In this document: piece after piece, positions 3,766 to 62,280 of the stretch
How the letters are laid out: the number at the start of each line of letters is the position of its first letter
How positions within the stretch are numbered: position 1 is the first letter of the stretch
Assembly: GCF_003073045.1 (NCBI RefSeq)
Contig: NC_037597.1
Span: forward strand, 3,224,190-3,288,189
Direction: 5' to 3'
DNA: 64,000 bases
Source of the DNA: Pomacea canaliculata
Taxonomy: Eukaryota > Mollusca > Gastropoda > Architaenioglossa > Ampullariidae
Position numbers and translations under genes: made by a program
The notes under the pieces: generated by a model
The model's input: only the letters and a program-made list of their open reading frames with translations
Told to the model about the DNA's origin: nothing
The model's database searches: none

Positions 3766-3869
3766 CAGCTCTCGCCCAGACGGAAGTATAAGTGATGTGA
3801 CGTCATCATTTTTTGCGCAGCCTTCACCCAGACGGAAGTACAGTTATTGTGACGTCAGTGCAGGAAGCT
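3766..3869 (+). promoter_or_regulatory. Duplicated ETS + CRE promoter of MAD2L1BP
   Basis: A 52-bp unit occurs twice in tandem just upstream of the p31comet start codon. Each copy carries CCCAGACGGAAGTA, an ETS-type site, followed by the palindromic CRE TGACGTCA. CGGAAGT lies at 3781-3787 and 3833-3839. The CREs lie at 3798-3805 and 3850-3857. Both site pairs are spaced by exactly 52 bp, showing one duplication of a whole regulatory unit. ETS plus CRE sites are typical of TATA-less promoters of widely expressed genes. Confidence 0.7.
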
Positions 3870-3885
3870 GCGGAAACTAAGCAGC

Positions 3886-6800: not shown

Positions 6801-8403
6801 AATTAACAGAAGCGGAGATAAAATATTGCCTTGGGGTGGGCTTCTGCAGAGAAGAACAATATCATGGATTACTAGTGGTTTCTTGCTAGAGCACCAAATC
6901 AACAAAAAGTTGATGGAGGGGTGTAGCATCTGGTCACAAATTTTTCTAGTGCAGATCTACAAAGTCATTAATCTTTGACAAAAGCAGATCAATTTGGATT
7001 CATAAAATAGTCTTGTCTGTGAAGTAAATCATCCCTTTATCACTAGGATAAACATGACATAGGATGATTGTTATGGCTGGAAAGCCGGATGTTTGCCATG
7101 TTTTGTTAATAATGTACATGGCTGAATAAGTAATTAGTACCTAGGGAAAAAGCTCACCATAAATAAAAGTCAATTTTAATGGTAAATATTAGACAAACCA
7201 TAGAAGATGATGTCACATAAATGGGGCTTACATGTGGTGTTAAAAAGCCATCAGTTAGGCTTAAAACAACCAAAATAATTTAATTTGTGTATATAAGATG
7301 CATATATTGTGGAACCTATCCTAAAAGAACCAAAAACTGTTTTTGTTTGGTGAGTTTAAGAAATAGCAAACTGCATCTTCAGAGATTAATTATTTACGTT
7401 TTTTTTTTCAAATGATGGTTTTTGCTCAAATTCATACGCAGATGAGGAAGTGCTGTTTCTTTTCCGTGACAAATATAAATTGGCTTTGAAACTAGGTAAC
7501 TAGCAAAATATTTTGTTTACACATCATAGAAGTCAATGAACTTTTTTTATTTTTCAGGTACAAAATTCGCACATCAACAGCAAATATCTCCAGACAGAAA
7601 GAAAAGCACAGGCGATACTCTCAAGCCTCGAGGATTTATTTGTAAACATTTTAAAGGCTTTTGAGACATGTCCTGAAATTCAGCAGGCTCTTGTGCTGCT
7701 TGGAAGTACCACTGCAACCCCAAAAGAAGTGTATGTTGTAAATCTCCCAAGCCTGTGTCCAGAAGCAAACCATGTTTCACTTAAGTCATGTAAACAAGCT
7801 TTCTTCCGCCACATTGTAGCAGAGCAGATTTTGGCCAACGAAGCTGCCCTTGGGCCAACTAATGTGATGGTGATGCTTCTTGCACCTACAACAGCTATTC
7901 TGAAAGGGTTCGTGCCAAAGATGTCATTCAAGGTACCTTCCAGAGGGATCTGTTTAACTCTGAACATGATTTGCATGCAGCCACATTCTTGCCAGGAACT
8001 CACCTTTGATGGTTCAGAAGTCGAGATATCAGGTATTGAACCACTTAATATTTCTTCTGCTGAAACCTTGGACCATTCACTCAGTGCTACACCTTTGTCT
8101 TCATGTTCAAGGCAGCACAGACATACATTTTTAAAATTTCCCGTGGTAAAAATGGAAAGAAATCATTTGTCCACACCTGGTAGTGTCAAAGCTGAGGATT
8201 TTAATCATGTTCTAACTAATGATTGTGAAATCACTGGTTCGGTTAAAGAATTGATGCTTCCTCATACAGCTAGCACCCCTAAGCCTGGACATTGCCAACA
8301 GCCTCCAAATAGCAACTGTGCGCAGCAGAGCAGTAGTACAGAGATACAACACCAGTGTATTTGGTTTCAATATGCTACTGCAATTAAAGGCTATAGTGTG
8401 TAG
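3886..8403 (+). CDS. MAD2L1BP: MAD2L1-binding protein (p31comet), two exons
   Basis: Exons 3886-4047 and 7558-8403, joined in phase 0 (GAG|GTAACT ... TTTTCAG|GTA), give 335 residues. p31comet binds closed MAD2 and, with TRIP13, dismantles the mitotic checkpoint complex so that cells can leave metaphase. Exon 1 encodes the first helix (S-L-V-I-E-L-I-K-Y-L-L-Y-E-R-N-Q-I-P, matching the vertebrate Y-Q-R-Q-Q-L-P block). Exon 2 has S-S-L-E-D-L-F, the A-L-V-L-L-G-S...P-K-E-V-Y block, F-K-V-P-S-R-G, and the C-terminal I-W-F-Q-Y-A-T-A-I-K-G-Y-S-V that corresponds to human I-W-F-Q-A-P-V-T-F-K-G-F. Relative to the human protein there is an insertion of roughly 100 Ser/Thr-rich residues before that last strand. 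A possible poly(A) signal, AATAAA, is at 8921. The 3.5-kb intron carries several mobile-element relics. Confidence 0.93.
4244..4420 (+). mobile_element. hAT-like element end fragment
   Basis: The sequence CAGGTGTGGGCAAAGTTTTC followed by GCGGTCCGG and GGCGGCCCGG is the usual terminal and subterminal composition of animal hAT elements. I find no matching opposite end or target duplication, so it is probably a truncated copy. It lies inside the MAD2L1BP intron. Confidence 0.45.
4486..4720 (-). repeat. SINE-like dispersed repeat, family A, copy 1
   Basis: Starts with an (AAT)n run, then AAATGCAAATTTGTAAAG and a block shared with 46690-46940, including GAGCTGAGAGTAACATGATA and GGACTAGCATTATGGAAAAG. 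The trinucleotide run marks the 3' tail of a SINE inserted in reverse orientation. Confidence 0.6.
4886..5338. mobile_element. Tc1/mariner (Tigger-type) MITE
   Basis: Ends CAGTAATCCCTC and GAGGGATTACTG are perfect inverted repeats, flanked by the TA duplication (4884-4885, 5339-5340). The interior has the TTTCGTTTATCGCG...GGTTCTGGAA composition typical of Tigger MITEs. It is 453 bp long with no coding frame and lies in the MAD2L1BP intron. Confidence 0.85.
5836..5905. repeat. SINE-like fragment
   Basis: The stretch TTTATATAGCTCCCACTGTA ... TCAAAGCGCTTGACAA resembles the conserved subterminal block of gastropod SINE-like repeats. It is short and of uncertain family. Confidence 0.35.
6136..6929 (-). 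mobile_element. LINE (non-LTR retrotransposon) reverse-transcriptase relic
   Basis: Reverse-strand frames carry the 3' half of a LINE reverse transcriptase. S-P-P-Q-G-N-I-L-S-P-L matches the conserved P-Q-G-(S)-V-L-S-P-L motif, followed by E-F-I-A-W-C-N-D-N-I-L-G-L-N-V, which matches the family's F-x-x-W-C-x-x-N-x-L-x-L-N block. Downstream, in shifted frames, come S-F-K-Y-L-A-T-I-F-D and a K-K-A-Q-Q-R-L-F-I-L connection-like helix. The catalytic F-A-D-D block is not intact. Several frame changes show an old dead copy. It sits antisense in the MAD2L1BP intron and probably belongs to the CR1/L2/Rex-like group. Confidence 0.75.
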
Positions 8404-17552: not shown

Positions 17553-17914
17553 AACAGAATGCCTAAGTCTCACAAAAATGAACAATATTTCATCTCAATC
17601 CAAACAAGGACACGTGAAGCAACACTTCCGGTTGTTCCCCAGTAGCAACAAGCATCAAGATAAAATATTAAATTTTTTATAATTCATTAAAGTATAATAG
17701 TACAAGAAGTCTAAAAATCTTATTGAATTTTTGAAGGATATATTTTAGTATTTTTAAATAATTTTATTTTTAAAGACATGACTGCTGCTTACATTTGTAA
17801 GAGTAGTCTCCCCTGCATGCTTCGAAGTATGACCCACTGATTTGTAGCAGACTGCACTAAGGGCACTGATTTCGCTCTCTGCGATTATTCGTGCACTTTT
17901 GCAAACAACTCACA
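17553..17914. promoter_or_regulatory. Bidirectional promoter of PNO1 (-) and KPTN (+)
   Basis: The two start codons face away from each other across 362 bp. Near 17626-17634 lies ACTTCCGGT, an ETS-type site usable in either direction. There is no TATA box at a plausible distance from either start. This arrangement would tie a ribosome-assembly factor to an mTORC1 regulator, though co-regulation is an inference. Confidence 0.6.
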
Positions 17915-20900
17915 ATGAACACGACAAAGATTTTTAAGTGGAATGACGCCCATTTCTGTTCGCTATCGTCACAAACTAATGTTTATGGAATGTCAAAAAT
18001 AAGAACTGAAAATAATACAAACAAATTACTAGTGTCCACCATTCACAGGAACTTCTTATCGATAGAATACCAAAAAACTGGTGACAAACTCACTCCACTG
18101 ACTAAAGATATCTTGTTCACATACATTCCAGGTCGGAAAATAAGGTCATATATGCCTAGAAAATAGTTGTAAATATCGATGGTTTAATTTTGAAAATAAA
18201 GATTTTACACATGGACGTGGAAGTTTTAGAGGCTTAAGTTTTAGGCAAGCAGTATAAGTTAATTTTTATTCTGCTTTTCAGGAGATGCAGAGATTGTGTC
18301 CATGGATGCAATGACAAGACTACCTCCGAACAGAGGTCTTGTTGTTGGCATCACTTTTATCAAGGTATCTGTAAATAATGCATAACACATAAGAAATAAA
18401 TTTCAGTTATGTTGAAGAAACTTGTTAACGGATATCTCCAGTGCATCAGATCTTACTTAAACATCAGGACATTTATTAATATGCATTAATCCATACATTA
18501 ATGAGTTTTGTGTACATGAGGCTAATAAAGAATTCTTTAGCAATTTCTGTCCGTACAGCCAGAAGACCAAGAAAATCGACCCATCAGTCAGATGCTTATT
18601 TACTCTGGAGCACCTTTAGGTGAAGAAAATGTGGAGGAAAGCATTGCAGGAGAAAGCAAATTAGAAGTTATGACAGGTAAAGTCTTACTATCCTAATTTT
18701 TTTTTTAGATGAAGAAATTTTAAAATATATATAATTGTTCAGATCTGAGCTTTTGATGTTATGATAGTAATTGCTATCCACTGGAGTTTTGTCCTTCAGT
18801 ATTGGTGTTGCATAAGTAGAAATGTTTCACATTCTTGTGAGGGCTTTTTGTTGGTTTTTTTATGTGTGTTTCTGTATGTGCAGATGGATGCCAACACATT
18901 CATCTGGAGTTCAGACCATTCTTGTTGACACATACTGCGTACGTAATAGAAACACACATTTTTAAGGCTGTGAGCTGTTGTTTAACATATCACTAGTACT
19001 TTTTTATTTGTTAGTGTTGAGTAGTTTGCTATGTGTAAGTTTAGTTTATTCCTTATTGCTCCTTTGAGGAGCATAAGGCCGCAACAACACCTCACTATGT
19101 AGAAGAGTAAACTTGAATGTTTTAGGTTTTTGACCAGAAACTTCTTTAAAATGCTGTCATTGGCAGCTGAGATACCAGTTAAAGATTAACTGAAAAGGAC
19201 ATGTTATATATAAAAATAACTATCTGACTATCTGCTCTTGCAGTAGAATGGTTTTGCAGGTTAACAGTTGCCTTGAATGATTTCTTTCACTCTGGTCAGG
19301 ATGGTAATGAACAGTTTTGATCACAGGTTGAAAATACAGCAGAATACTGAACCCGAGGCTGTCTTTTTACTCAGCGGCTCAGACTGCAAAGTCCACATGT
19401 ATCAAGAGGTGATATTAAAGATTGCTTTTCTTCTGTGTACACCACGGATGTTTCAGATAGGTATTGTAACCGGACTGACCGGCACCCTATCGCTACTAAC
19501 ACCCTAGCGCCAAATCAGTCCGTTCCTCTTTTGTCGGTACAGGGAAGAGGACGGGAGTTCCCTAGGAGAATTTTCCTGTCTAACAAAAATTCTGGCTCTC
19601 GTTAGTCGGGTGCGTCGCCTAGTTCTAACCTGCCTCGCGTTGTGTTCTTTTCTTTTTCCTTCTAAACCTATTTCCATACGCACCCGAGCTACAGCCGACC
19701 TAGGAGCCCACAAAAGACCCTGCTTTACTAACTGCACGTAAAGTGTCCTTTCCGGTTGGTGTGTCAGTTTCGCCGGACCTTCTCGTGTGTTCTCTTCTGC
19801 TGCGTCACGCCTTACTTACACAGGGACAGTACACACACTAGCACTCGCTGACACTACACGCTCACACAAGTACTAAGGTTTAAGACATAGATTTATTTAC
19901 AAAACATACACCTAACAGCAAAACAACTACCAAACTTATACTACCCTATCCTACCTACAGAGAACCTAACACCTAGCTCAACACCCAAGGGAGGGAAAAG
20001 GAAAGAGACTGAGCGTCGCGAGCCGCTTTTACCAGCGGACCAGATGCATATTTCAGCGCCTTGGTACTTCTCGCTAACTCAAGTCTCCAACCGTTCTAAC
20101 TGCCATGCCGGCAGGACCAATTCTCGTCTCTAGAGAAAAGGCGCGGACGCTGCTGTGCGCCCGCATTTTGTACAGGGCAGCTTGGGTTCTACGTCACCCG
20201 CAGTTGCTGCCCTGTCTCGCGCTGCGCGCCGCTCGCGCGACCACGCGTGGGGTGGGAGGGGATGTGGGGTGGAGGGACTAGACACTGTCAGCAGTACCGC
20301 TGACCGAAACTAGCGCTCCCGCTACACTATCAAGGCCATATGGAAAGTCATTTAGGTTAGAGCTGCATTACTTCACAACTGAAACCTCAATATCCTGTTC
20401 AAAATTGTGTCTGTTGCTTCATGACAATTTAACCAAAAACAAACCAAAAAACTTCAAAAACTTGATGTTACTTTTTTTTTCACAACAGTCTTTTTTTATC
20501 CTCACAAAGTGTGTGATTATCTGTTTATGGCATGATATAATTTATCATTTTCTTTATCAGATTCCTGCAGAGCATGGATTCAGAGAGGAACCATGCGAGT
20601 GCTACTTTCCTGAATTTGTTAATTTAAATAACAGGTAAGTTTTTGAAAAGTATGTGCAGGACACATTTATTTACCTATTTAAAAACTACACCAGATATAA
20701 GTAATTAATTTTAAAAAATCATACATTAAGACTAGTTGCTGCAGTGGATGTTTTATCAAATCCTTGCAGATATTCTGGTGAAATCTGGCTTTTTTTGTTC
20801 TTAAACCAGTGTACTTCAGCTGGTCATAAAGACAACTGATTGCAGTCACAGATTAACCGCCATAGGACTACAAGATGGAGAAGTCAGGGTTACTTTAGTT

Positions 20901-23575
20901 GACACTGATAAAAAAGGTATCGTTGTATTAAGTGATCAATTAGCAATATCTGAAGTAGAAATATTTGAAGTGAAATCAACAGTATATAGCAAAATAAAAA
21001 AACAGAACGTATTCATTTTCAAAAAATATATATTTTTTTAAACTTTGCCATTCTACATCATGTTGGAGCAGTGCCTGCATACATACACTCATGTCTGTAC
21101 ATGCATGTCTTTTCAGAAATAATTAAAGTGTGGACTGCTGAAATGGACAGTCCAGTCACAAGTCTCAGTTTTTTCTCCCATTTGAAGTGTGTGCCCTGTC
21201 CTTCATTTCTTGAAGCCTTCAAAATAAGTATGTCAAATAAATCGCTCCATAATTTTTGCTCTAAGTGCAGTTACAGTTGTCTTTTTTTCTAATACATAAG
21301 GATTAAACCTTATCTTCCTTTTAAGGCTTTTATTTTTGAGGGGACCAAGGGTTGTTTTGGAGATAGTAGATGAGTAAAACAAAAAAGCAGATTGAGAGAT
21401 ATGCTTTTTTGTTATCAGTGGAACATGAAAAATGTAGACTGCATAAACCCTTTCATATTGATTAATATTTTGAATGATGAGATTAGACTTTCACATAGGT
21501 CATTTTCACCATACAATGGCTGAGGAGAGTCTTTAACTGGGTTTCTTTCTTGTTATCTTATTACATCAGGTAACAGTTGCCAGAATAGTCCTGCAGCTGA
21601 TTCGGTAGAATCATTGGAGATTAACCTTCTGATGAGTAGTGCTTTAGGACAAGCTGCTGTATACAGGTACTGTACATTGCACAGATTTCAGCTTTACTTA
21701 TAAGTTTCTTTGTTATGTGTTATGGGGTTGTGGTATTATTTTTTTTTTTTTCCAGTTGGGAAGAAAAGTAAACACTCCACAATCCATAGAAAGTAAATAA
21801 ACACTTGCTTAAAGCTTTCGGCATACATCTGCATGCTTTCATCAGCAACTATAGGCTGTGTCTGAACAATGCTGGCAGTTAGTCTAAGTCTCTATTAAGA
21901 CTATAGGTTTTGCATCCACAATGTCAACGGCTTCCTTCACCCCTCTCTGGATTCCCCTACCAGTTCTTGCTGTCATGGATGCTGACATCATGTTAAAAGA
22001 ACCTTATAGCTGGCTTTTTGTAAATTCATCAAAGTAATGGAAAAATATTTATATTCAGTTTTATACTAATGCAACTCTACAGAGATGTCATCGGACATGG
22101 ATTGTCAGAAGTCTTATGGCTACCAGACAGCGACCGATATGATGTAGCACTCTGTAGTCTTGCAGCTGATATTGACTTTGATGGGCAGAATGAAATTCTT
22201 ATAGGAACATATGGACAGGTATGCATTATTATTTTCCATTTTAAAACTAGTTTTGATACATCATCTATATGCAATAAACTTGTAACATCTTGTCTTGCTA
22301 TTTTCTTTTCTATCTGGTTTGCTTTTAATCCATATCAGTTTTTGGCAGGGCTGGAAGTTATTGCTTCTTGTTTACCTTAAATCTGATTTAATGCAGCATT
22401 GCTGTTTAATCCATCTCTTAGAGTATGCTTTTTTAGGTTAAATTTTGTAATATACTTTCCCAATTTATTGCCATTATGTAACATACATGAATAATTTATT
22501 GCCATTTTAGGAGGTACTGGTGTACAAGTACTTCCCCACTAAGGAAAAATCTGTGCCTGTTGAATCTGATGAAATGTCCAGTTGGGGTGTGGATGTTGTT
22601 GCTGACTTACGAAACACAAGACCATACAGCATGGGTGACCAGGCGGATGACTCAAGTAAACATCGGCACAAGTCTGATGAAGGAAGTGCAACTGAGAAGA
22701 CTCTACCACAAAGAAAAGTCAAGTCTGAAGAAGATTTGTCCCTGTTAAAGTTAGTTGATTTGGTTCAGAGTGCTGTTGCTTGAGAGTGTGTGCCTGCGTT
22801 AGATTTTAAGGTGTGCTGTTCTTTTCTCACCAAACACCTTCAACATAAAATATATCTTGTTTTAAGTTATTAAATTGATTTTAAGAATGTTTACAGGAAA
22901 AATCCTTCATTTTCTTTCATCCTTCCTCTTGAAAGTGACTTCAACATAGACTTAAGTAAAAAAGCTGCAGTGAACACTGGTCACCAGATGCAAGTGAGGA
23001 CAGTCCAAGAGCCTCATTACAAGCTGCTGTGGCAGCGCAGTTTTCCGTGCCCCGTCATGAAGCTAGACTGTGCAGATATGATGGGAGATGGTCTTGAGAA
23101 CTTGATTGTCTTAACATTGCACGGCGTCCACATAATGCAGGTGAATACTATAGTAGCAGATTTGACACAGTAGCATATTTGTTAGCATTAACTTTTTGGA
23201 CCTTCTAGCAATGTCAAGTAATGTTTCAGCACTCTTAGAGTCCCAGCTGAAGAATGCAAGAAAGAGGAAAAAAGAATAAATAAACAAGAGCTTGATGAAT
23301 ATTTAATAGGGGATTGTTCTGTTAATTAATTCTTATTCTCACCTCTGTTATAGTGTGGCAAAAAGAATAAAGATCTTGAAATAACAAATTAGAAGAAGGT
23401 CCATTTGGTGACATAAGATCTATTTAATATTCAGTCTACTAAAGTATTGTTTGCATTAAGTTACCACAACTGATCTAATTGTCTGTTACAGCCTGATTTG
23501 AATGAAGTGTCAGCACTCTTGAGCAGCCGTCTGCAGCAGCTTTGTCTTTCCAAACCAGAAGCTGCTGCTGTGTGA
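17915..23575 (+). CDS. KPTN: Kaptin, KICSTOR complex subunit, thirteen exons
   Basis: Exons 17915-18131, 18282-18364, 18559-18676, 18884-18938, 19300-19408, 20561-20634, 20810-20916, 21117-21227, 21570-21666, 22083-22218, 22511-22749, 22897-23140 and 23492-23575 sum to 1674 nt, giving 557 residues with phase kept at all twelve junctions. Kaptin is a beta-propeller-type protein. Within KICSTOR it anchors GATOR1 at lysosomes and restrains mTORC1. Diagnostic blocks are A-V-F-L-L-S-G-S-D (exon 5), Y-F-P-E-F-V-N-L (exon 6), [14 protein letters not shown] (exon 7), [12 protein letters not shown] with an FG-GAP-like acidic loop (exon 10), and [10 protein letters not shown]...[17 protein letters not shown] (exon 12). 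It is longer than human kaptin (436 residues), mainly through an insertion of charged, low-complexity sequence in exons 11-12. AATAAA lies at 24023. Confidence 0.95.
19465..20326 (+). mobile_element. Solo-LTR-like fossil in KPTN intron 5
   Basis: A GC-richer block of about 860 bp, bounded by TGTAAC and GCTACA, replaces ordinary AT-rich intron sequence. Its first 200 bp are repeated in reverse at 53240-53492. TG...CA ends and the absence of any coding frame suggest a solitary LTR of a retrotransposon. The flanking 4-bp repeats are imperfect, so the family is unresolved and the copy is probably old. Confidence 0.5.
21752..22000 (-). repeat. Penelope-like or similar retroelement fragment in KPTN intron 9
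   Basis: Read on the reverse strand, the block GCTGATGAAAGCATGC ... GCCGAAAGCTTTAAGC with following GTGTTTATTTACTTTC has the look of Penelope-like element terminal sequence, where CTGATGA...GAAA hammerhead-related motifs are known. There is no coding remnant. The assignment rests on this resemblance only. Confidence 0.35.
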
Positions 23576-38000: not shown

Positions 38001-38469
38001 CAAATGCGTGTTTATATTCACGACAATAAACGGACAAGTTCTTCATCTGTACCTACTAATTATCATCATCGTAACTAACATATCACTTGCAGATATCTGA
38101 TTGAGACACTGAGCTGAAACTAGTTTTACATTAGGAGATTGAGTGTCTGCACCACTGGAACTTCTTGTTTGCCAACGTATACATGTATCTGTAACCTAGG
38201 GAACGCTTCACAGGCCGAAACACACCATTTGCTAATTCAGACCATCTAGATGTTTGCGTCACCAAGGCAACTGATTTTGCTCTCTGCTTAAAAAAAAAAT
38301 GCGGCAAACATACCGCACACTTCGTACATACCGCCTTTATACGTTGTGTGCGTGTAAGGACGGAGGATTTTATTATACAGCCTCGATCCTTGTTTAGCAG
38401 AGGTCCCATCCATGATCAGTGCATTTTAGAGACACTTAATTTTCCGCTGGTGTTAACTTTCTCGCAGAC
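35028..38469. other. Probable first intron of the ARM/TIR-like gene
   Basis: No coding sequence is supported. It contains CA/GT runs at 35970-36010 and 36480-36500 and a CpG-containing segment at 37200-37350 with CRE and E-box (CACGTG) motifs, which may be an alternative promoter. Confidence 0.35.
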
Positions 38470-38475
38470 TGCACC

Positions 38476-41101
38476 ATGAACCATCGCCAGCGAAATCAAA
38501 ACCCTCGACAATGGAGACGTCTACCGCACGTGCAACGACCACACAGGTCGCGGCCTATGACCTTTTGGCTCTCTCAGCAAGGAGCTGCCAAATGGCTTCG
38601 AAAGCATCAATCTGTAATTGAGGTAACAGAAAGTTGTAAAATAAGCTATATTGGAGGGCATGAATAAATAATTAAATAATGGTTCGTAATATATGCCGAT
38701 ATGTGTATATATACAAATCTTGTGGGTTTTTATGTTGGTTACTTCGCGCTTACTGCATTTAAAAACCTCTCTCTAGTATTATTTCTTCAAGTTTTACGCT
38801 TTTTCATTGGTATAAGAACCTCGTAATATTTACTAGTGTTTGCGCATAATAATTATGTAATAACACTTTACTTCATTTTGAACTGCACATAATGTTACTA
38901 AAGATTTAAGGACAAGATGTACCACAGTATGATTGTACTACAGGAAGCGTATGTATTTTCTAATATTTAAGACGGTAATTCATCTAAGTTACTTCAGTCA
39001 GTAATGCTAGCAATACAATACATTCAAGTGGTTGGTGCGAAGAAGGTTGGCAAGTTTGACTCTGACCTGAAGCTACTCATTTATTTCACTGTTTTATATA
39101 TTAACTATAAGAAACTGCTCAATGATTCATACAGGACTGATTTTGTTCATCTTTGCTTTGCTTTTATTTATTTTTTGGGGAAGACGGCTGTTGGGCTTCT
39201 AGAAATGTACCCTGGCCTAGTCCAAATAACTGCTCTCGATGCACTCTGGAACTTCATGGCGCCATTTGTAAACATCTATACTGAAAAGAAGGAAAGTTCT
39301 CGACAGGAGCAGCCAGTCAAAGGAAGGTCGGTAACCAAGCGACCCAGTCAAGTACTCTAGTGTCTTTTGCGCATCTTCCAAAGTCCCCCATCTCTCTCTC
39401 TCACAAACAAACAAAATGTTAAAGCGTGCAGCAAAGGCTTTTTGAATGGCACGTTTCTCAACATTCATGATAATATGTATTCAACAGAGAAAACAAACAG
39501 CGTAAGACTGGAGGCGCCAGCCTTCCCAAGCTCTTATCTGTTGGGCCAGTTCCTGCCATCTCCATCACGCACGACGCAAACGAAGACGAGAACGACCTGG
39601 AGGAGGAACTGCTTGGTCGTCATCTACAAGGCGGTCTAGACGATGACGACGATGATGAGGAAGAAACTGAGACGCGAACGCCACACATTTATGTCTGCAT
39701 CCACGCGGACACAGTTGGACACGACAGACAGCTCTATGTTCGCGTCATCGACGCCCTTATCTGTGACTTCTTCGTGATGAGCGGCCCCCGGGTGGAGTCT
39801 GGAGAGCTGTTCAGTCACGACTCTGTCCGCGAGAAGAACCTCAGTCAGGCCAACGCGTGCGTCTTCGTCTTGGACGGCGCTAGCCTCAACGACCCGGAGT
39901 GCTTCCGTGACCTCTCCGCGGCGTGGGCGATGAACCTGCCCATGGTCTTCGTCAAGAACTCCAGCTTTTCCCTCCCGTCTCCGCTGCCGGACTTCGTGCT
40001 GCAGCATAGCTTGGGGATGGAGTCGCCCGCTGTATCCCGAGCCTTCACGCCTGCTTTCCCAATGCGCCACAGCAGCGTTACGCCCACGTCTGACGTCACG
40101 CCTGATGCGCGGCCTGGCCAGCTGAGGAGGCGGCGCTCTTTCTCGTCCATGCGCTCGGCTTCCCCCAGATGTCACGTGACTGGCAACAGCAGGCGCTCAG
40201 AGAAGCGAGGCCAGCAGGATTTTCGTGAAGCAGACGTAGTCCTGACGCTGCTCGACGGCTATCGTCACGCGCTGGTCTTCGAGGACACGGCAGGTGACGA
40301 TTGCGCTTTGGCTCTCCGGCGGCGCCTCCAGTCGCTGCTGGACGCCAGAACACGAAGCGTCATCGCAACGCCTGCTATGTCATCAAACTCTAACTTGCAT
40401 CAGGTAGATGCTAATGAGTTCAGACACAAAGAAAGTTCGAAATTTCTCAGAGTACCCGAGTTTTTTTCTGGTGATCTTTCACCTATGACCGAATTTCCTA
40501 AAAATAGTGTCGCGTTACACAAAAGCGCCAACGACAGCCGCAGCAGCAGCAGCTGTTTGGCCTTAGCATCCAAATCAGTCACGAGTCTTCCCCGCGAATC
40601 CAACACACCTTTGCGTGGTCCTGAACTCTCCACTGGCTGCGGCCTTGTCGATCAGAGATCTCGAGGTCAAGCCTATTGCACCAGCCATTCCATCAGCCGA
40701 CAGCCCCATTCAAATTCTCATCCTATTTCCCTCCAAGGCACACCGACCCTGTTCATCTGTCCAGACGCTCTTTCACCAACTTGCAGCAGATTCAGAAACG
40801 CTTACAAGAAGATCGGGTCAAGTTCCTGACCTCCATGGCAGGCGACAGTCTCGACCCGCCACCTCGCGAGACCATCTACCTGGTGTGCGAAAAAGCCAAG
40901 TACTCTGCTAGCTGCGAACCTCGTCTAGTGAAGTGGCCCCCGGTGAACGGCCAGCAGGATGTCGACCGGGAGCTTCAGGATGTAGACACCCTCTCAGATT
41001 TGTTCTTGGACTCGCCGACAAGTTTTCCAGACCTCGATCTCTCTCTTCCATTGAACACACGAAACGGGACACCAGACAGCGAAAGCTCAACAGTTGTGTG
41101 A
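38476..41101 (+). CDS. Uncharacterised ARM-repeat/TIR-like protein
   Basis: I do not recognise this gene. A phase-0 model with exons 38476-38622, 39184-39330, 39501-40403 and 40697-41101 gives 533 residues. Residues about 30-85 (K-W-L-R-K-H-Q-S-V-I-E...G-L-L-E-M-Y-P...A-L-D-A-L-W-N-F-M) look like one armadillo-type repeat. An acidic linker (D6E3) follows. From about residue 160, H-I-Y-V-C-I-H-A-D resembles TIR box 1. A-C-V-F-V-L-D-G-A-S-L-N-D-P-E-C-F-R-D-L-S-A-A-W-A followed by L-P-M-V-F-V-K resembles the TIR strand-helix with S-x-x-C-x-x-E, but with Asp where the NADase Glu would be. G-Y-R-H-A-L-V-F-E-D could be the last strand and helix. The remainder is Ser-rich, ending in an acidic tail. 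The exon at 38476 has no upstream in-frame stop back to its acceptor, so further ARM exons upstream are possible. The last intron (CAG|GTAGAT ... CATCAG|CCG) is inferred from phase. Confidence 0.6.
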
Positions 41102-44894: not shown

Positions 44895-46115
44895 CTAGCA
44901 ATAATGGCTGCCATGCATGTAGGAATAGTCAAATTCCTGGGTGGGTGTCGAGTATGATGGTGAATTGTGGTACTGACTGTAGGAAGAACTCATCTGGTTG
45001 TACTGCTGGAAATGGGTCTCTCCCACAGTACCGTACCCACCACCATAGCCATATTGCTGACAACTGCCCCAACTGTTCCAATCCCCATATACTGGTCCAG
45101 ATGTAGGCCGATCCACCTGAGACCAACCATGTGGTCTCTGCCAATCGCCAGCAGGCTGCTGTAAGTTTCGGTGATCTCCAGGACCTTTTGTTCCTTGCAT
45201 GGAACTACAAGCTACTGCCATGTCACCTGGCATCCTCGAATAACCCAACTCCGGCAGTGGACTGGTTGAAGTTCCATATGATCTGTTATTTGGTCTTGGA
45301 GCATCAGCGGGCCCACCCATATGTCTATGTCCCACTGGACGTGGTCCTTCAAACCTTGGTGATCGACCTAGTGCACCCACAGTCTCGATTTGCCGGTGAT
45401 CATCTAGCTCATTCATGTCATTTGTTAAACTGCTGTATCTTGCAGGATTGTCAATGCCTGACAATTTCCCATCGGGACCGTGAGATCTTTGATCGCCATA
45501 CCCTCCCTGACTATTCATGCCACCAAGTGGTTTAGGAATCACTTCAAGTTCGGAATTGGCTGAAATGCTATGTTGACCACCTATGCTGGGCATTCTCCCT
45601 GGTGCATTATTGGGCACATTAACCATTAGGCCTCCTTTCCCTGAATCTTGGATCACACCTCTTCCTCTTCCAAGATCTGGTCCTTCTGAATTCTTAACCA
45701 CTCCTCCTCTTCCAACTGGAAGATTCTCTTGCTTGCCAAGCAGACTTCCATCATTTTTTTCAAGCATTTTGCCTGGATGCATCTTTTTCAAGATAGCCTC
45801 ACGCTCTCTCCTTAGCTTTTCCTGGGCAAAAGAAATCATTTCTAAAAGCTCTTTCTTGACTATGGGAAGAGGCACAGGTTTGTTAGCTGCTTCCACAGGG
45901 ACACTTGGTCTAATTGGTCCATTCTGATTAGGTCGTTCAGGCCTCTGATAGGGTTTCTGCAGATCTGCTGAAATTTGTGCTGCTCGATTAAACAATCCCA
46001 TGGCAGTCTGATTGGATGGTAAACTATGTTCTGGTACTCCAAGTTTTCTCTGCCATACAGGAATTCGAGGCCGTGGAGGGCGAAACAATGGCTGGTTTAA
46101 AGGCGGTGTGTCCAT
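44895..46115 (-). CDS. Uncharacterised protein with prion-like Tyr/Gly/Ser/Gln-rich tail
   Basis: A single open frame of 406 residues. The ATG at 46115 is preceded by in-frame stops, and a splice acceptor (TTTTCAG|GAG, exon start 46167) indicates an upstream non-coding exon. Residues about 1-60 are Pro/Arg-rich (F-R-P-P-R-P-R-I-P-V-W-Q-R-K). Residues about 85-112 form a charged helix (K-K-E-L-L-E-M-I-S-F-A-Q-E-K-L-R-R-E-R-E). The middle is Gly/Pro/Asn-rich with R-G-R-G-like pieces. The last 70 residues are dense in Tyr, Gly, Ser and Gln (Q-Y-G-Y-G-G-G-Y-G, S-S-S-Y-S-Q-Y) like phase-separating RNA-binding proteins. There is no RRM, KH or zinc finger, so RNA binding is only an analogy. The open frame's length and composition make chance unlikely. 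Confidence 0.65.
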   Translation of the reverse strand: MDTPPLNQPLFRPPRPRIPVWQRKLGVPEHSLPSNQTAMGLFNRAAQISADLQKPYQRPERPNQNGPIRPSVPVEAANKPVPLPIVKKELLEMISFAQEKLRREREAILKKMHPGKMLEKNDGSLLGKQENLPVGRGGVVKNSEGPDLGRGRGVIQDSGKGGLMVNVPNNAPGRMPSIGGQHSISANSELEVIPKPLGGMNSQGGYGDQRSHGPDGKLSGIDNPARYSSLTNDMNELDDHRQIETVGALGRSPRFEGPRPVGHRHMGGPADAPRPNNRSYGTSTSPLPELGYSRMPGDMAVACSSMQGTKGPGDHRNLQQPAGDWQRPHGWSQVDRPTSGPVYGDWNSWGSCQQYGYGGGYGTVGETHFQQYNQMSSSYSQYHNSPSYSTPTQEFDYSYMHGSHYC

Positions 46116-48130
46116 TTGTCAGCATTAACTGTCACGGCTGAGATAACGAGGACCACTCCACCAACTCCTGAAAACATAAATAATCATTGTGTCTCTAAAA
46201 TATGCACACAGTAAACTTACTTCACATCTATGAAAACGAATGCAAACACAATAGAAACAGTAAGTAAGCGTCAAGCGGTGGAACTACTAATTTACTAATA
46301 TACTTATTCAAGTGTTAATAGAAGAAATCAATTAAAAACATAGCACATTGTAACATTACTTAGTCCTGATTGTTTTCACTACTACAATTAGCAAGTCAAA
46401 CATGATTTTTTTTTTTCAAAACTATCTACTGAAGCACAAAAATCGATACACTGCACAAACCACGAATAATTGTACCCACTCTGTTACCAACAATAATCGT
46501 TCCAACCTTGACCTTTCACAGCTGGCGTTTCTCTGTATTGTTAAAAAGCATCTGAAAAATGAAATTATTAGTACTTAACTAAATATTTTATTTTTCATCA
46601 AAGTAAGTCTTATGAACCTGGGAAACAGTTAAGAGGACTCGGCGACCGATGTTCACTAAGTACTGCCACAATACTGATTTCTCCACTTTCATAAGAATAA
46701 TAATAATAAATGCAAAATTTGTAAAGCCCACACTCACACTCCTAAAGAGTATGCTTTTAGCGCTTAAGAACAAGAACGAAACATGGACAGCATACGTGGG
46801 GCAGGAAAACAAATAGCATATGAACTATAAAAGAATAAACAACCGTACTAAACGAAGAAATCAAATACAGAAAACACACAGATGAACCAAGAGCTGAGAG
46901 TAACATGATATTGCAAAACGGTGTGAAAAAGGACTAGCATTATGGAAAAGGTTGTTTATGTAATGTTTACAGAAGAGGTGTGTTTTCAGTGCACATTTAA
47001 AGGATTCAAAAGTTGGTAGGTAGCAGATATGGAAAGTTTCCTAGCTTTGAGTGCCAGACGTGCAGCAGAGCTCTGTATCAATCGAAGAGATGAAAAAAAA
47101 ATACGTGGAAAAATTTGAATAAAAATGACAGAGGATCAATTGTTAGTTATTTCAATTAAGTGCGCTTTTGGTGCATACCTGTTAATTTGTAGATCTCTGT
47201 TGGGGGGAAAGTACACATTTTATAAAATTTTTCACATGGTCGCCATTACAGCTTCCGAGTTGACCTCGACCTCGCAAGTTCACATCCGGTTTTCGAGGAC
47301 CTTCGCTGTTGATCGACCGCAGGTGTAGATGATGTTGTCTCGTTGTAGTGCGTCGGGGTGCAAGCAAAAATCTGTCGTTGGCGGTCGATAAATTTAATTG
47401 GATGTTTCCAGATATTGCAGGTATTGTTAAAAAGGAAATGTATTCAAATGGAGAAAAGGATACTAGGCTATTACCCCTGGGGCCCTATGTTTAAATTAGT
47501 GACGAAGATGCCCTGATGTAAAGTAAATCAACATCTACAAACTGTTCGTCACAAGACGATTTTTCCTTGGTCTCTCCATTTGTAAAGCGATTTAGTTAGG
47601 TGGTAGATTTTACTAGGCTAGGTAGGTAGGATATATACATAATAGTTGTGTGTGTATATTATGTTATGTAAATAAATATGTCTGAAGATATTTACCTGTG
47701 TGAGCGTGTCAGTGCCAACGAATTGTAGTATGTCGTACGTATGTCCCCGTCGTGTGAATGAGGTGTACTAGAGAGATTTGTTGTCCATGTAGTCGTGACT
47801 CATCTGCAGAACACACGTGAAGATCCGTGGAATTGATGCACCGATAGAAGAGAACTGAGCAAGTAAAGCAGGGTCGTTTGTGGACTCCAACCCCAGCAGC
47901 AAAGGAATATTGGCTACAGGTGGGGGACATGTCTTGAGTATCCGGGGGCCATGTGGCAAAATGGCGTCCGACCCATAGCGAAAGTGAAACCGGGCCGTAA
48001 CAACGGGGTCATGTCGGTTTTACCTGTGAAACAAGCGTGGGACGCTTCTCTCCCCTTGTGACCGCTAGTCAACCCTGATGGCTCATGGGTACGTCCATCT
48101 TTTTTTTTTTATATATCCCACTATTTATAT
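46116..48130. other. Upstream region of the 46.1-kb gene
   Basis: AT-rich with a SINE-like copy at 46690-47060. CpG-richer segments at 47230-47360 and 47860-48080 may be promoter or first-exon sequence for the reverse-strand gene. The second contains GAAAGTGAAAC at 47980-47990, an IRF/ISRE-like motif. Confidence 0.35.
46690..47060 (-). repeat. SINE-like dispersed repeat, family A, copy 3
   Basis: Begins (AAT)n then AAATGCAAAATTTGTAAAG. Shares GAGCTGAGAGTAACATGATA and GGACTAGCATTATGGAAAAG with the copy at 4486, and continues with a segment (TTTAAAGGATTC...GGTAGCAGATATGGAAAG) shared with the copy at about 30900. It is the most complete of the three. Confidence 0.65.
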
Positions 48131-54218: not shown

Positions 54219-57200
54219 TCAAGCTGATTTTTTATCGTTCTCGGAAGTCTGAATTTTGACCTCAACGGATTCATTAGAAATAGCATCCTCTTGGGCAGTG
54301 TTTCGAGCAACGGTGTCCACATCAGTATTACAACTGCTGACCGTTTCTGGCTGGAGCGTAGACGAAGCCATTCTTAACCTCTGACCCGTCTCGTACAGTA
54401 CGGAACTCATAGAACTTAAACACTGTTCTTCCCCTTTCCCGTATTCTTCTTCCGCGGATGATGACGATAGAAGGGCAAAACGAACCCGCCTTGGAGACTT
54501 GGCAGCAGACTTTGGACGTTCAGGGCCCACCGCCAAGACTCCTACCGTCTCACCAAGGGATTCTTTTTCCATCGATGTCCCCAGGATGGACGCCATGGCG
54601 ACCTCTTTCTTGTGATCTACCAGCAGCAAATTATTTTCTTTGCTCGTGAAATCTGGCGCACAAGATATATGTGAGTCTTCGCACCTTGACACTGTTTCAG
54701 CCGTACCATGGATTTGGAGGTCAGAGAGCGTGTCATCATTCCCCGGCAGGTCACCTGTTTGCGTTACGGTGTCACCGCCATACAAGATGTCAACAGCGTT
54801 CTGACTAGCGGTGGGAACTTCTCGGGGATTCTCATTGCCTCCTCGGTGCGCCTTTCCCATTGTTGCATCGTTGTGACCGCCGGCATCCTGATTTTGTAAA
54901 CTGCTTGATATGGATATACTTAAGTCCTTACTTGGTACTGTCCCGACGTCTGTCCGCTTGGTAGTAAACAAGTTTCGTTTTCTGTGGCATCCCGAGGGTG
55001 AAATTCAAAGACGATCTGTTTCACAAAGAAACTTTCTACTTTATGCTGGGCAGTTGGCGGCGGCAAAGGAGCCAGCATCTCGCCGCTGGATGGGGATCCG
55101 TTTTCTGCAGTTCTCTCCCTTTCATCCGCCCTCCATGACCCGCCATGTGTTCCCATGTCCTCGGGGGCAGCCGCATCCAACATCCTTGCACAAGAATCTC
55201 TTGCGATTTCCGTGATTTGCGAGGCTGCTTCGAGCTCGTTGTCTGGTACAGCACTTGCTACAGGGGCGGTTTTCATCAGTTCAGAGTCAGAAATATACTC
55301 CCCATCTTGCTGGCTGTTCTCCGAAGGGACCAGATTACTAGCAGAAGTGCACTCTGGCTCAGATTTCTGGAAACAAAGAACAAATCTTCCGAGATTTCAG
55401 CAGTCAATGAAAAGTATTACTAACGCACGTTACTGAACATTGAAGTTTTAACTGACACAAGATAAGACTTTTACATTAAAAGGTATTTTCTACTACGCGC
55501 CGATTACATTGCTCAGCAATCAACCATGTTTAGGCCGATATTTGTCTTTGCTCATTACTTTTATTTGCAAAGTTTTCTGATTGCTTCATGTTCTTCCAGA
55601 GATTGTTTACAGTGTTCTTTTGTGTATTGTTTGCAGTACTGTCAGCTGCTGGTAGGCTAAAGATCTGTCGATACCTCAAATTTTCACATTGCGAACATTC
55701 AGATAAAGGGATAGTTGCAAAAGGAATTCGTTTAACGTGTGGCCGAGGACAGCAGCAAGAATCTTGCATACAAGTGTTTCAATGGGGTTAAAAACTGTAA
55801 CAATGACTTATGGTTACAGAGTTTTGACTAACAGACTACATTGGTTTAACAGCGTATGCTTACTTTCAAAGGAGCCTGTGTTTGCTCAGTCTTATTGCCA
55901 TTAGAAATTTAGTCTTATGGCTTCAACAATGTCCTTATTTTCATGGCATGTTTGAACGGTCATGCTAAAAATTCTAAATGATGGCTTTACCTTATCACGT
56001 ATGTTATCATCCATGGCAATGCAACCAGTACTGTCTGATGTTCCGTCTTGCCGTCTGACGCTTGCGGGATTCAAGTTCTCGTCCAAAGTACCACCGATGT
56101 ATTCATCTTCGACATCCCCTATAAAAAAATGGGAAATACTTACATTTTTTTCAGAATGATATTTCTGCATTGACACTGTTTCGAGCTGATGCAGATCTTA
56201 GAATTAAGAAAAATGCTTCACTAAAATGTTCACAAAAATGGTGATTTCCCTACCACCCACGCTTTTAGGTTTAAGCTGGCGATGGGTAAATGGCTCTTCA
56301 AAATTATGGTCTCAAACATTGAACGACGGTTGGTGGGAAAGGTGCGAGAGTTGAGTGTGATGGAAATGTTTGCCTTTACATACATTTGAGAGAAACGATT
56401 CATAGCACATTCTTTTTTTTAAAAAAACTCTCACTGCACCCTCCCCCCTGCCCCCTACTTAATCTTGACATCGGCATCATGAAATACAGATGACGAATAC
56501 TTGCGGAGCACATTAGGTTCACGACAGGCAATGTGGATGATTTCCTTTTAATAGTTGCGGTCATCTTGTATTTGATTAAGTTATCGCACCGTCAAATGGC
56601 AATACTTACCTGCTTCTTCGTTTTCAATCTTTTCCGTGGTTAGTACCTCCGAGGTGACGTCATATCCTATCACTTCGTGCTCGATCGACACTAGACGCGC
56701 AGAGTTTTCGGCGCTAATCCTTCCCTCTTCTGTTTCGCTGACCTCTGACCTCTTAGCCGTCGTCGTTTCCTGTTGTTGCTGCTGCACATCTTCCTGCTGG
56801 TTCAGTTTGCTGGAGACCATCTGCTGTTGTTGAGTTTCAAACTGCTCTTCTTGCAAGTGCACGGGCGAGACAAAAATGTCCTCGCCTTCAGTCGTGGTTT
56901 TCTCCATTTCTTCTCCCTTGGAAGCTTTCGCATCCTCCTCCTCCTCGACACTCAGATTTTCCGCGTTCCTTCTATGCTGCGAAGACCTAAGAGCATGCTG
57001 ATTGCAGCGACGTACTTGAGGTTTTCCCCAGCTCTCTGCGCGACTTTCTCTCCCTCTGGCGCTGGACCGGAAGTACCTTTGCTGACCTTTCATCAACCCC
57101 CAGCGCCGACGAGGAGGCTGAGCTCTCCCTTCGAGATCCTCCTGACCCTCACTTCGGTTGCGAGGTTCCCTCCGGCGTGGGTACGGCTGCGTCCTTTCCT

Positions 57201-59175
57201 GCTGCCTGTGCGCCTGCGTATTGGTCATCTTCCGCTCGAAGGGCTGCAATGCTGCAGTGGCGTCATCAGCAGCTGCATCGTGCTGCTGTCGGTCGTCCAA
57301 AGAGTGACGGGACGCTGCAGCAGTCCTTTGCTGTCGACGGCTGTTGTACTTGTTGCGAGACCGCTGCTCCTTCGGATCAGTCGCCCTGACGTCCTCTTGC
57401 GCACGTGTCTGTGTTTCGACATGGCCGTTGTGTGTGGTTCCACTCGCCTTCTCTTTTTGTTTCTTGCTGGAACGGCGTTTGTTCTGCCTGTCGTCTGGCG
57501 TCCTTTCGCTGGACTCTTGTGACGATGGACATTGTTTGAGATCTGATGTCTCGGTGAAAGAATCCTGCTTGCTCCTGGTTGTATCTGACTGGATTGAATC
57601 CGCTTCCGCTCTGACATCTTCGCGCTTTCCCTTCCTCAGAAGAGAAAGAACATGTTCTAAATTATCTTGTTTAGAACCGTCTTGTTCTATGGAGACACTT
57701 TTGCCCTGAATTAAATTCTCATTTAGGCCCGAGCTCTGTTCACCAGCGAGACATTTGTTCTCGACTTCGTAACCATTCTGAAGGAAATCAGGCTGTTCAG
57801 ACTTGGCACTACTTTTTTCAGTGTCCCATTTTATCTGGCTGGCTATATCTTTACCATCAGTATGCTCGTCAGCCTGTGGGTGACCTACAGTGTTTGACTG
57901 AAGGAAGCATTCTGAGTCTTTCCTCTCTTCACCGTCAGGGTCCGCCATCTTGTCCCGATCTGTCCATGGCCTTGGCTCGGAGTCTGTTGCGTTAAACTCC
58001 ACGAACTCTGAGATTGACGAACTTCGCCCTTCCCGCGGCGAGGAGTGCTGCGGCTTCACCGTGCTCTTGCGCAGAGGTCGAATCTTGTCTTTATTCCTCC
58101 ACGGAAACTGCTGCGTCATATCCTGTTTGGGCATGGTGTAATGCACTGCCCTCTCTTGTGCATCCTTTCTACCTTGCCCGCCTGCGCTATGATAATGAAT
58201 CGTTGTTTCTTTCGGGTACGTTGAAGGTCGAAGGTGCAGCTCCTTCCGTCGACAGTCCAAGTCTAGGCTGGTGTTCTGACGTAGAATCTGCTCGTACTGC
58301 TGTAGAAGCTGCTCTCGGAAACTCTCGGATCCCGATCGAAAGCTCTCGGAATTTGTCCGGGCGCCTGTGTCTTGCCCATGTCGGTAAATCGGAGAGTGCT
58401 GACAGTAAGTGGGCGAGCGACGAGAACCTTCCACATTATAAGGACTGGCAAACGCCGCGTGGTACAGGTTCTGACCGTGACCCTTAGCCAGGAGAGCTTC
58501 CTGCATCTGTTTCTGAGCTGCCTGGTGATCATGCGCCTGCGACATCTCCACGAGGCGGGATTTCACGCGCTCTTTCAGTTGTAGGAGTTGCTCCAGCTCT
58601 CTCTGAAGCCGGACAGCTTGCGCCGCTTTGTCTATGGCCTCTTGTTCTCTCATCTTTTCCAGATTCAGCTCTTTATCGTAACACCGAGTCCCCAAGCTCT
58701 CCCAGGCTCGCAGCCCCTCCGCGATCTGCTGGTAAGGATGCAGAACGTCATTTGCTTGTGAGCTCAGAGAGATATTTTGTCGCTGCTGCTGCTGCTGCTG
58801 TTGGTGCAGCTGCGGGGACCAAAACGTCTGATTCATGGTGCCCACTGGAACATATAGCTGTTGGGGAGGCTTGACCCACGAGTCATCGCTGTCGTTTGAG
58901 AAGAGGTGCAGCGAGTCGCACCGCGTTGCTGTTTGAGGCGACGGCCCCCACTTGGTCCACCAGTCTTGTCTGGAGTTCTTCTGCTTTTCTATCAGCAATC
59001 GGTACTTCTCCTGCAGCTGCAGTTGTAGTTGCTGTGGTGAGGATGGTGAGCAGGAGGTGAACGACCAGCCGGCGTTCTGATGGTGCTGAAGCAACTTTTT
59101 GTACCATGGCTGGTATTGATTCTGGACCTGTGAAATGGGCACCTGAAGGACACCGCTGGCGAATAGGGTTGACAT
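54219..59175 (-). CDS. Large uncharacterised Gln-rich coiled-coil protein with PP1-docking-like motif
   Basis: Coding exons 59175-56610, 56118-55991, 55366-54932 and 54887-54219 are in phase and give about 1265 residues. A 5' untranslated exon probably ends at about 59951 (TTTGTCAAG|GTAAAT), and the acceptor ATTCCAG at 59190 sits just before the chosen Met (M-S-T-L-F-A-S). The N-terminal third has Gln-rich coiled coils (Q-L-Q-L-Q-L-Q-E-K-Y, then A-V-R-L-Q-R-E-L-E-Q-L-L-Q-L-K-E-R-V). The middle is highly charged, with basic runs (K-R-R-S-S-K-K-Q-K-E-K) suggesting nuclear location and RG/RE-rich stretches. The last exon has S-P-R-R-V-R-F (54477-54488), a canonical R-V-x-F docking motif for protein phosphatase 1. 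No enzymatic domain or named family is recognised. The last intron would be only 44 nt. If it is retained, translation ends after V-R-T and the docking motif is lost. Confidence 0.7.
58784..58804 (-). repeat. Poly-Gln CAG-type repeat in the coiled-coil gene
   Basis: CTGCTGCTGCTGCTGCTG on the + strand encodes Q-Q-Q-Q-Q-Q-Q in the reverse-strand protein. It is a short trinucleotide repeat and likely length-polymorphic. Confidence 0.8.
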
Positions 59176-60904
59176 CCTCTGCAGAAATTCTGGAATCGAT
59201 GACAACCAGAACAGTATTGTTATTGACATTAATGCAACATCGCTTAGCTTTTAGGTACAAAGGTGTTTCTCAGGGACAGAAGAGAGTAGAGCACACTGAA
59301 CAGAGGAAGCGAAGCATGCAGTTGTGTGCCATTAATGAATTGCCCATAAATAACTAGGTGATAAAGATGTTTTAGGACGGTGTTTTTGTTTGTTTGTTTT
59401 TTGTTTTGTTTTGTTGTTTTTTGGTTTTTTTTAACGGTTAAAATTAGGCCAGTTAGGAAATTAGGCATAGCTTTTTTATAATCGACAGCCATTACAAAAG
59501 TGGCGTACCGGAAGGCGGAGCTATGAGATACTGTCGTCTGCTTACCCCAGTCGGACAAATTTTAATCGATACACAAAAAACCCTCAAATATCCCTATCAC
59601 CTGGTTCATTAACGGTACACAACTCTACGGCCCACTCCCCTATGACAATGGATCATGCCCCTCTGTTCAAAAGGATCGATCGATCGACCGACCTATGACG
59701 TACTTCCGTTACTCGATAAAGTTCTATCAGAAAGAATTCAGACGTACACGCCCTAGGCAGATGAGGCATCTGCCTGCCCATAAGCACGGCCCTTATTATA
59801 ATATACAATAAAATGTTGATTTGTGCAGCGCTTTTCCCCACCGTGAAAGCCGGGTTCAAAGCAAACATACTTAAAGACTTCGTCTGGGGGCGTGAAAATG
59901 TTCTACAAACTGCTAAATTCTTCCACAGTACAAGAAAAATAAATTTACCTTGACAAATATTCCGCGGAAGATCTAGTATATCTCCACGAGCGTCAACAAA
60001 GTTCTTATTGACACAACAAAGTAGACGAACAAAAGAAGTGCACGAGACCGTGTTTCCCCGCACGCTTCCACCTGCGAAATGCAAAGCTGGTGAATTGTGC
60101 TCACGGTTCGTTAACACAACGTGAAGAGAACGTGAAGAGCGTGAAAACTCTTGTTCAGTCGGGGCGCGTGCTGGACCATCGATAGGGGTGCGTAAACCTA
60201 GAGAGGATGTCATTAATGAATTGAGGGCTGCATTACACCAAAGCCTCATCCTCAAATTACTCAACTTAAAAAAAAAAATTATATTTTTATAAATAAGATG
60301 GAGTTTATTTGAAAAACGAGTGACAGAGAAATATCAGAAGCTGTAACAGTTTGCGATGACGTTTTCATCAACAGAGGTGAACAGGTAACCTACAGTAGCA
60401 AATGAGGGTGACTTACAACACGGATGAATGCATTACTGAAGCTGTAAACATGTGTTTTAATGTCTTTATTATAGACATTCGTTAATTAAAAAATTTTAAA
60501 AAAATCACTTGAGGTCGCCATCAAAACGAACTCAGCGTTCGCCGGCCAGTGTTCTTCGGAGTTGCGTAACACACACCATGCTGAATTCTCACCTCTGACC
60601 TGCATGAGAGAAACAAGTGACATGGTTTTCATGTGCTTTCTACAAGTACTGTCTGCTGAAAGGGGAGGGACGGCTCCACCCTACTGTCCTTGTTTGTTTG
60701 TTTGTTTTTGTATGGGGAGGGGGGCGGATTTGGAAGGGATTGGTTATCGCTTATGATTTTCGTCTTATAAGCAAGGTGTTATGTTTGATATGTGGGCTGC
60801 GGGTTGTGGTTCGTGCTGTATGAGGACGCTAACCTTTGGCCTGGAGTACAGTCCGCTAAACATCGACATTTTGTCGTCACCTTATTTTGACGTCACATCA
60901 CCTT

Positions 60905-61699: not shown

Positions 61700-61839
61700 G
61701 TCGTTCCTGTTGCCGTGCTAAATGACAGCGAAGGATAGAGAGTTCTTCAATCCTTTTAAACGTTTCTTGCTCAGCAGACTTTAGTTTGGTTCCCTGACTT
61801 ACATCCCGGACGTCGCAAGCCTGAAGCATCTGCCGCGTG

Positions 61840-62097
61840 ATGGCGCTCCAGCGGTATCCCGCGTACTCTGCCGGCTTCAATGCACGCGGCAAGAGTCCGG
61901 GGATGAACACCATTCATCGGGAGGTCATCGACATTCATCAGAATGAGCTTGTCGAGACTATGGAGACGCGCACCGTTGTGCGGGAGCTGCTGACGCAGGG
62001 CATGCTGGGAGATTTTCACTGTCAGCAGCTGGAGTACGTGTACCCAGAAGGACGAATAGTGGCTAATCGTCTTCTTCTGGCCTTTGTCCGCAAGCAG
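61840..62097 (+). CDS. First coding exon of a CARD-containing protein (partial)
   Basis: The ATG at 61840 opens an 86-codon exon ending CGCAAGCAG|GTACTG in phase 0. Residues about 24-86 fit a caspase-recruitment domain, a six-helix death-fold module: H-R-E-V-I-D-I-H-Q-N-E-L-V-E-T-M, then V-V-R-E-L-L-T-Q-G-M-L, then C-Q-Q-L-E-Y-V, and R-L-L-L-A-F-V-R-K-Q. The spacing L-V-E ... L-x-x-x-G-x-L ... L-L-x-x-V matches CARDs of initiator caspases (caspase-2/9 type) and adaptors. The CARD ends almost exactly at the exon border, which is common for such genes. No later exon (protease, kinase or repeat domain) is found up to 64 kb, so whether this is a caspase or an adaptor cannot be told here. The stretch after the donor is intron filled with transposons. 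Confidence 0.7.
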
Positions 62098-62280
62098 GTA
62101 CTGTACTTAGTACGACATCACGGTTATAGCCTCATGAGATCGGGATCGTTGGGGAGGGAGATATAGATCCATGCACTTACACCAGGGTCCAGCATTTTTG
62201 TGAGGGCGGTGTCCATCCTCTTCCTCACAGCTTCACCTTCTCTAAGAGTTTAGCTGTTTGTAGGTTGAGAGATTTATATA

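Follow-up and report, generated by a model that had tools for sequence, protein, structure and literature searches.

Positions 38476-41101 of the plus strand of the Pomacea canaliculata stretch analysed here (the window, 64,000 nt) very probably hold an uncharacterised, animal protein-coding gene, since they include a 451-codon open frame with a matching GC pattern. Our tentative reading of its product is an orphan animal protein with a divergent Rossmann-like, possibly TIR-type, domain that would be non-enzymatic, and a length of about 460–510 residues or more is the best explanation of the exon data. At its N-terminus, the protein would have a short stretch of helix, followed by an acidic linker and then the divergent Rossmann-like alpha/beta domain, which resembles TIR most and is split by a long disordered insert; a disordered tail would form the C-terminus. 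The coding exon and its sequence are established, and the fold of the alpha/beta domain is inferred.

Gene model and coding evidence

The model comprises four plus-strand exons, with proposed exon 1 running from an ATG at 38476..38622 in a doubtful reading frame, exon 2 at 39184..39326, the main coding exon 3 at 39488..40403, and exon 4, which encodes the C-terminal tail, at 40787..41101, closing with a TGA stop codon at 41099-41101. The three joins are in phase (0, 2, 0) and give 506 residues plus the stop, as the preliminary description of this DNA had stated. At the junction of exons 3 and 4, the proposed donor/acceptor pair was third of 311 phase-consistent pairs in the range tested, and phase-keeping is therefore weak evidence for the model.

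Exon 3 lies within the open frame at 39474-40826, which at its base composition would be expected to contain about 16 stop codons (probability of remaining open 9.7e-8). The GC content is 0.55–0.63 across 39500-40399 (whole window 0.386), dips to 0.43 early in the proposed last intron (40400-40549) and recovers to 0.51–0.59 across 40550-40999; near and past the stop codon it drops to 0.45 and then to 0.40. Codon usage was scored with the other long ORFs of the window as training set, leaving out the candidate gene. The proposed frame scored best for exon 2 (0.082 vs −0.064 and 0.001) and for exon 4 (0.069 vs −0.014 and −0.011). The TIR-like stretch within exon 3 showed no frame preference (0.015 vs −0.042 and 0.013), and its other two frames hold 7 and 9 stop codons. 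The exon 3 frame stays open for 141 codons beyond its donor (40404-40826, plus strand), and part of the proposed last intron may therefore be coding in some transcripts.

The 5′ part of the model is less certain. The proposed frame of exon 1 is the sole one of three that is open to the donor; its codon score of −0.028 is at the off-frame level (off-frame mean about −0.045, SD 0.06–0.07; in-frame mean 0.138, SD 0.07) and a stop-bearing frame reached 0.096 when the training set included exons 3 and 4 of the candidate gene, and all three frames were alike (0.018, 0.025 and 0.003) with the candidate gene left out of training. Splice sites were ranked with a generic score, its weights taken from general knowledge, among 154 donors and 183 acceptors. 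The donors of exons 1 (GAG|GTAACA), 2 and 3 ranked 4/154, 6/154 and 3/154, and the acceptors of exons 2, 3 and 4 ranked 34/183, 50/183 and 7/183, the first two being weak. Exon 1 is itself preceded by a strong acceptor (38468, rank 6/183), so this exon may be internal, starting at 38468, or untranslated. Within exon 2, an in-frame ATG at 39205 offers a plausible alternative start. Another frame of exon 1 (METSTARATTTQVAAYDLLALSARS...), by eye more armadillo (ARM)-like, was rejected, as it runs into a TGA before the only strong donor and gave no matches.

Sequence and predicted fold of the alpha/beta domain

An acidic run of Asp and Glu (residues 148–156; 39639..39665, plus strand) directly precedes the alpha/beta, possibly TIR-like, core (residues 161–271; 39678..40010, plus strand), the strands of which were assigned by eye and from low-confidence predicted secondary structure. 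Its four strand-like elements, IYVCIH (residue 164), FFVMSG (191), ACVFVLDG (220) and PMVFVKN (248), are spaced by 27, 29 and 28 residues, with 27, 27 and 35 in the human SARM1 TIR domain by hand count, and the sequence RVESG at residue 198 resembles a BB-loop. The string V-F-V-L-D-G-A-S-L-N-D-P-E-C-F-R-D-L, on which the TIR assignment had originally been based, is present at residues 222–239. A Ser/Pro/Arg-rich insert (residues 272–345; 40011..40232, plus strand) follows the core and is probably disordered, as indicated by its sequence and a mean pLDDT of 26–32 per block. Behind it, sequence and a low-confidence model delineate a second alpha/beta piece (40233..40373, plus strand) with DVVLTLLDG (346), HALVFED (357) and the helix DDCALALRRRLQSLLDA, which would be the C-terminal strand and helix of a TIR domain if the fold is right. 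The two strands ending in LDG look alike (QANACVFVLDG, 39846-39878, and READVVLTLLDG, 40224-40259, both plus strand), and the stretches around them gave sub-cut-off matches to overlapping parts of the Pfam family DO-GTPase2 in two versions of the protein; self-BLAST did not detect a repeat between them.

Profile searches with TIR, TIR_2 and ARM families, suggested in the preliminary description as a check, gave no significant family match: neither Pfam TIR nor TIR_2 matched the model or the long ORF up to E 10 (HMMER filters on), and searches of NCBIfam, PADLOC and PDB sequences returned no TIR match. The Box 1 consensus Y-D-V-F-I-S-Y, as given in PMC7075850, is replaced by HIYVCIH, and a relaxed version of the pattern did not match either. 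A PDB phmmer match to a chain naming RB1CC1 (E 1.4) was taken as chance.

A TIR_2 profile of our own, built from 35 of 39 bacterial loci and scored unfiltered on a 118-residue core, aligned ungapped with residues 212–246 at 4.8 bits, a score reached by 5 of 5000 shuffled sequences. In this register the catalytic Glu column is occupied by Asp238 (39909..39911, plus strand), the consensus Trp of helix C by Glu234 and the Ser after strand C by Asp226, so that the Asp proposed earlier for the NADase glutamate position is indeed found there, provided that the TIR register is right. An MMR_HSR1 GTPase profile (30 of 30 loci) reached 4.9 bits on a stretch that overlaps this one, 2/5000 shuffles being as high, the score with a nucleoside deoxyribosyltransferase profile (6 of 8 loci) was reached by 210/5000 shuffles, and the response-regulator and SIS profiles (30 of 30 loci each) reported no score for the core. 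These profiles replaced a first set, in which DO-GTPase2 was represented by three sequences and some members of the DO-GTPase2, nucleoside deoxyribosyltransferase, response-regulator and SIS profiles were apparently on the wrong strand; DO-GTPase2 was dropped from the rebuilt set. With that first set, the numbers of shuffles (per 5000) scoring at least as high as the core were 11 and 22 for two TIR profiles, 10 for the GTPase profile, 15 for DO-GTPase2, 125 for nucleoside deoxyribosyltransferases, 2887 for response regulators and 2019 for SIS. The earliest TIR test, on a 117-residue core, gave 5/2000 and 10/2000 shuffles as high, and with the 45-domain profile, one of the two TIR profiles used, the core ranked below two other ORFs in the window. 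TIR scores of the core were 2–5 bits across all profile versions. Since the GTPase profile performed equally well on an overlapping stretch, the signal, as far as sequence profiles can tell, is that of a Rossmann-like strand-helix unit and not of TIR in particular. A good-looking hand alignment of the core to human SARM1 TIR was discarded after shuffle tests, which placed the similarity at chance level (266/1000 shuffles as high in local and 659/1000 in semi-global alignment).

Structure prediction, by AlphaFold in single-sequence mode only, was done for constructs of 234 and 117 residues, with mean pLDDT values of 37.9 and 46.4, respectively. From strand B onwards, both low-confidence models contain helix B, strand C, helix C and strand D in the order of a TIR domain, and past the disordered insert the 234-residue model also has one late strand and one long helix. 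TIR helix A is missing in both, with a strand at its place in the 234-residue model and neither strand A nor helix A in the 117-residue model. Foldseek searches of the PDB gave no match at E ≤ 0.001 for either model. For the 234-residue model, IF2 and phosphosugar isomerases came ahead of the MyD88 TIR domain (rank 22, E 0.25), whose TM-score of 0.44 by target length was the highest target-normalised value among the 50 matches listed. The 117-residue model matched Ran, translation GTPases and nucleotide N-glycosidases (MilB, DNPH1), with no TIR domain among the 50 matches listed. At such model confidence, these lists are no evidence. The TIR fold proposed at the outset is thus possible but unproven, and these data do not separate it from other Rossmann-like folds: the strand spacing fits and the models follow the TIR order of elements from strand B, but these models are too poor to decide and lack helix A, no TIR family is significant, a GTPase profile does equally well and similarity to SARM1 is at chance.

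The helical stretch, upstream sequence and neighbouring genes

The armadillo segment of the preliminary description found no support: at most one helical stretch is present, a hydrophobic run of about 30 residues in exon 2 (TAVGLLEMYPGLVQITALDALWNFMAPFV) that appears helical by eye and is all that remains of the ARM assignment. Pfam ARM and HEAT families did not match the model, exon 2 or either reading of exon 1 (to E 10, HMMER filters on), a PDB sequence search with the joined exon 1/exon 2 test sequence gave nothing below E 0.6, and self-BLAST of the protein, searching for tandem ARM repeats, returned solely the full-length self match. As described earlier, no SAM pair is found in the model by Pfam. 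Reading the three plus-strand frames through stop codons in the 14.7 kb upstream (24.0–38.7 kb) identified no Pfam domain and neither ARM nor SAM, in a search that recovered a split p31comet gene as positive control (E 6.8e-15); diverged upstream ARM exons could have escaped detection. As the armadillo half is unsupported, the comparison with the architecture of SARM1 is unproven.

The genes recognised in the window are animal-like. A rhodopsin-family GPCR exon is located at 1404-2285 (minus strand), with ghrelin, motilin and cholecystokinin receptors as its best PDB sequence matches, and is followed by p31comet (MAD2L1BP)-type exons at 3853-4140 and 7540-8400 (plus strand; Pfam E 0.00036, below the cut-off, and 5.9e-13, which together gave the E-value of the positive control). 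A kaptin (KICSTOR subunit) exon lies at 22024-22377 (plus strand; PDB match E 2.8e-12), and by eye we take 22874-23170 and, probably, 17870-18163 (both plus strand) to be further exons of kaptin. The candidate gene has kaptin on one side and a minus-strand ORF, itself uncharacterised, on the other. Two long minus-strand ORFs, 44898-46118 (407 codons) and 56584-59250 (889 codons), have no Pfam family above cut-off, and 61825-62163 (plus strand) matches Pfam CARD_2 below cut-off (E 0.03, 14.8 bits vs 28.2), with no CARD found in a PDB search up to E 1. A second copy of the candidate gene was not found within the window (best off-locus tblastn E 0.12), nor were relatives of the TIR-like stretch detected in IMG/VR viral contigs (2 stretches with the pattern), GTDB genome contigs (48 stretches with the pattern) or phage records.

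Competing readings and possible function

Besides a divergent Rossmann-like, possibly TIR-type, domain, the data can be read in several other ways. A rather less probable reading dispenses with any TIR or GTPase fold and takes the product to be lineage-specific and disordered for the most part, with short hydrophobic strands in a few places and an over-read motif; the low pLDDT throughout, the acidic and Ser/Arg-rich composition, the TIR scores of only a few bits and the absence of any family above its curated cut-off are all consistent with this, whereas the regular spacing of hydrophobic strands over about 95 residues argues for a fold, and single-sequence models are often poor for well-folded proteins too. 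We consider it unlikely, to a slightly greater degree, that the domain is a member of a different Rossmann-like superfamily, such as a degenerate P-loop GTPase-like domain that no longer binds nucleotide, and resembles TIR by convergence. The segment ...A-N-A-C-V-F-V-L-D-G scores as well with GTPase as with TIR profiles, Pfam DO-GTPase2 matches residues 335–415 below cut-off (E 0.0008, 19.6 bits vs 27; with the long ORF as query, E 0.0047), both Foldseek lists have GTPases within their first three matches (IF2, Ran, RF3), and a DTAG motif is present at residue 363. A pattern search for the P-loop GxxxxGK[ST] and the G4 motif [NT]KxD, however, found neither in the model or the long ORF, making a whole GTPase unlikely, and DTAG is C-terminal to the LDG strand, which does not fit the position of G3 in GTPases.

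Two further readings concern the gene as a whole. Decay or mis-assembly, with exon 3 as old coding sequence and a broken 5′ part, would account for the three frames without a clear winner in exon 1 and for weak acceptors at two of the three junctions between exons, but seems improbable given 451 stop-free codons, the codon preference for the exon 4 frame and the GC drop around the stop codon. Least probable of all, on present sequence very much so, is a true ARM-SAM-TIR (SARM1) relative or active NADase with other exons upstream. The strong acceptor before exon 1 hints at 5′ exons, the BB-loop consensus given for SARM1 in PMC7075850, (E)(R/K)LEAG, is similar to RVESG, and the candidate shares with this NAD+ hydrolase (ARM-SAM-SAM-TIR) a similar spacing of the first three strands and a TIR-like part C-terminal to a helical stretch. 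The candidate differs from SARM1 in lacking SAM domains, a detectable ARM region and the Box 1 consensus, with the catalytic Glu replaced by Asp and pairwise similarity at chance, and the upstream search was negative with a working control.

Should the favoured Rossmann-like domain indeed be of TIR type, a non-enzymatic scaffold would be its most likely role. NAD+ cleavage would not be expected of the protein, since other residues appear to stand in place of the catalytic Glu, the helix C consensus Trp and the Box 1 consensus, and for a TIR domain the loss of this Glu makes a scaffold or adaptor role a reasonable proposal. Weak contacts between TIR domains may let it self-associate or bind other TIR proteins, and the acidic linker and the Ser/Arg-rich insert would be potential regulatory sites. 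According to PMC7075850, over 90% of SARM1-group TIR domains carry the catalytic Glu, against under 10% in the MyD88, TIRAP and endosomal TLR groups, although its frequency does not always track enzymatic activity. The candidate resembles MyD88/TIRAP-type adaptors in its apparently replaced Glu and through the non-significant MyD88 TIR match in one Foldseek list, but differs from them in that no death domain and no sequence match were found. A more specific version would be a long shot: a lineage-specific TIR pseudoenzyme with Asp for the catalytic Glu, its domain interrupted before the last strand by a disordered Ser/Arg-rich insert of about 74–91 residues, that serves TIR signalling as a decoy or scaffold under the control of phosphorylation.

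An ARM-TIR architecture is not new even if both domain assignments were right, because it is known from Aplysia and oyster. In the Aplysia immunome, an armadillo-type fold accompanies TIR in 10 proteins according to the text and in 11 according to Table 5 (PMC9334734), ARM-TIR is a named class in the Pacific oyster (Crassostrea gigas, PMC4346834), and PMC6321704 deals with those invertebrate TIR proteins that are evolutionarily conserved. As far as these sources describe them, such genes of Aplysia californica and C. gigas, predicted to encode an armadillo-type fold plus TIR or TIR alone and mostly without assigned function, are the animal genes to which the candidate can be likened, but the mollusc ARM-TIR proteins have a recognisable TIR domain (InterPro signatures in Aplysia), whereas the candidate matches the profiles of neither domain. 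If the TIR reading is wrong, the locus is a warning that the short V-F-V-L-D-G motif suits TIR and GTPase profiles equally. If it is true, the protein would be one more highly diverged, probably non-catalytic member of the large and mostly unstudied set of invertebrate TIR proteins, and routine domain scans would miss such members.
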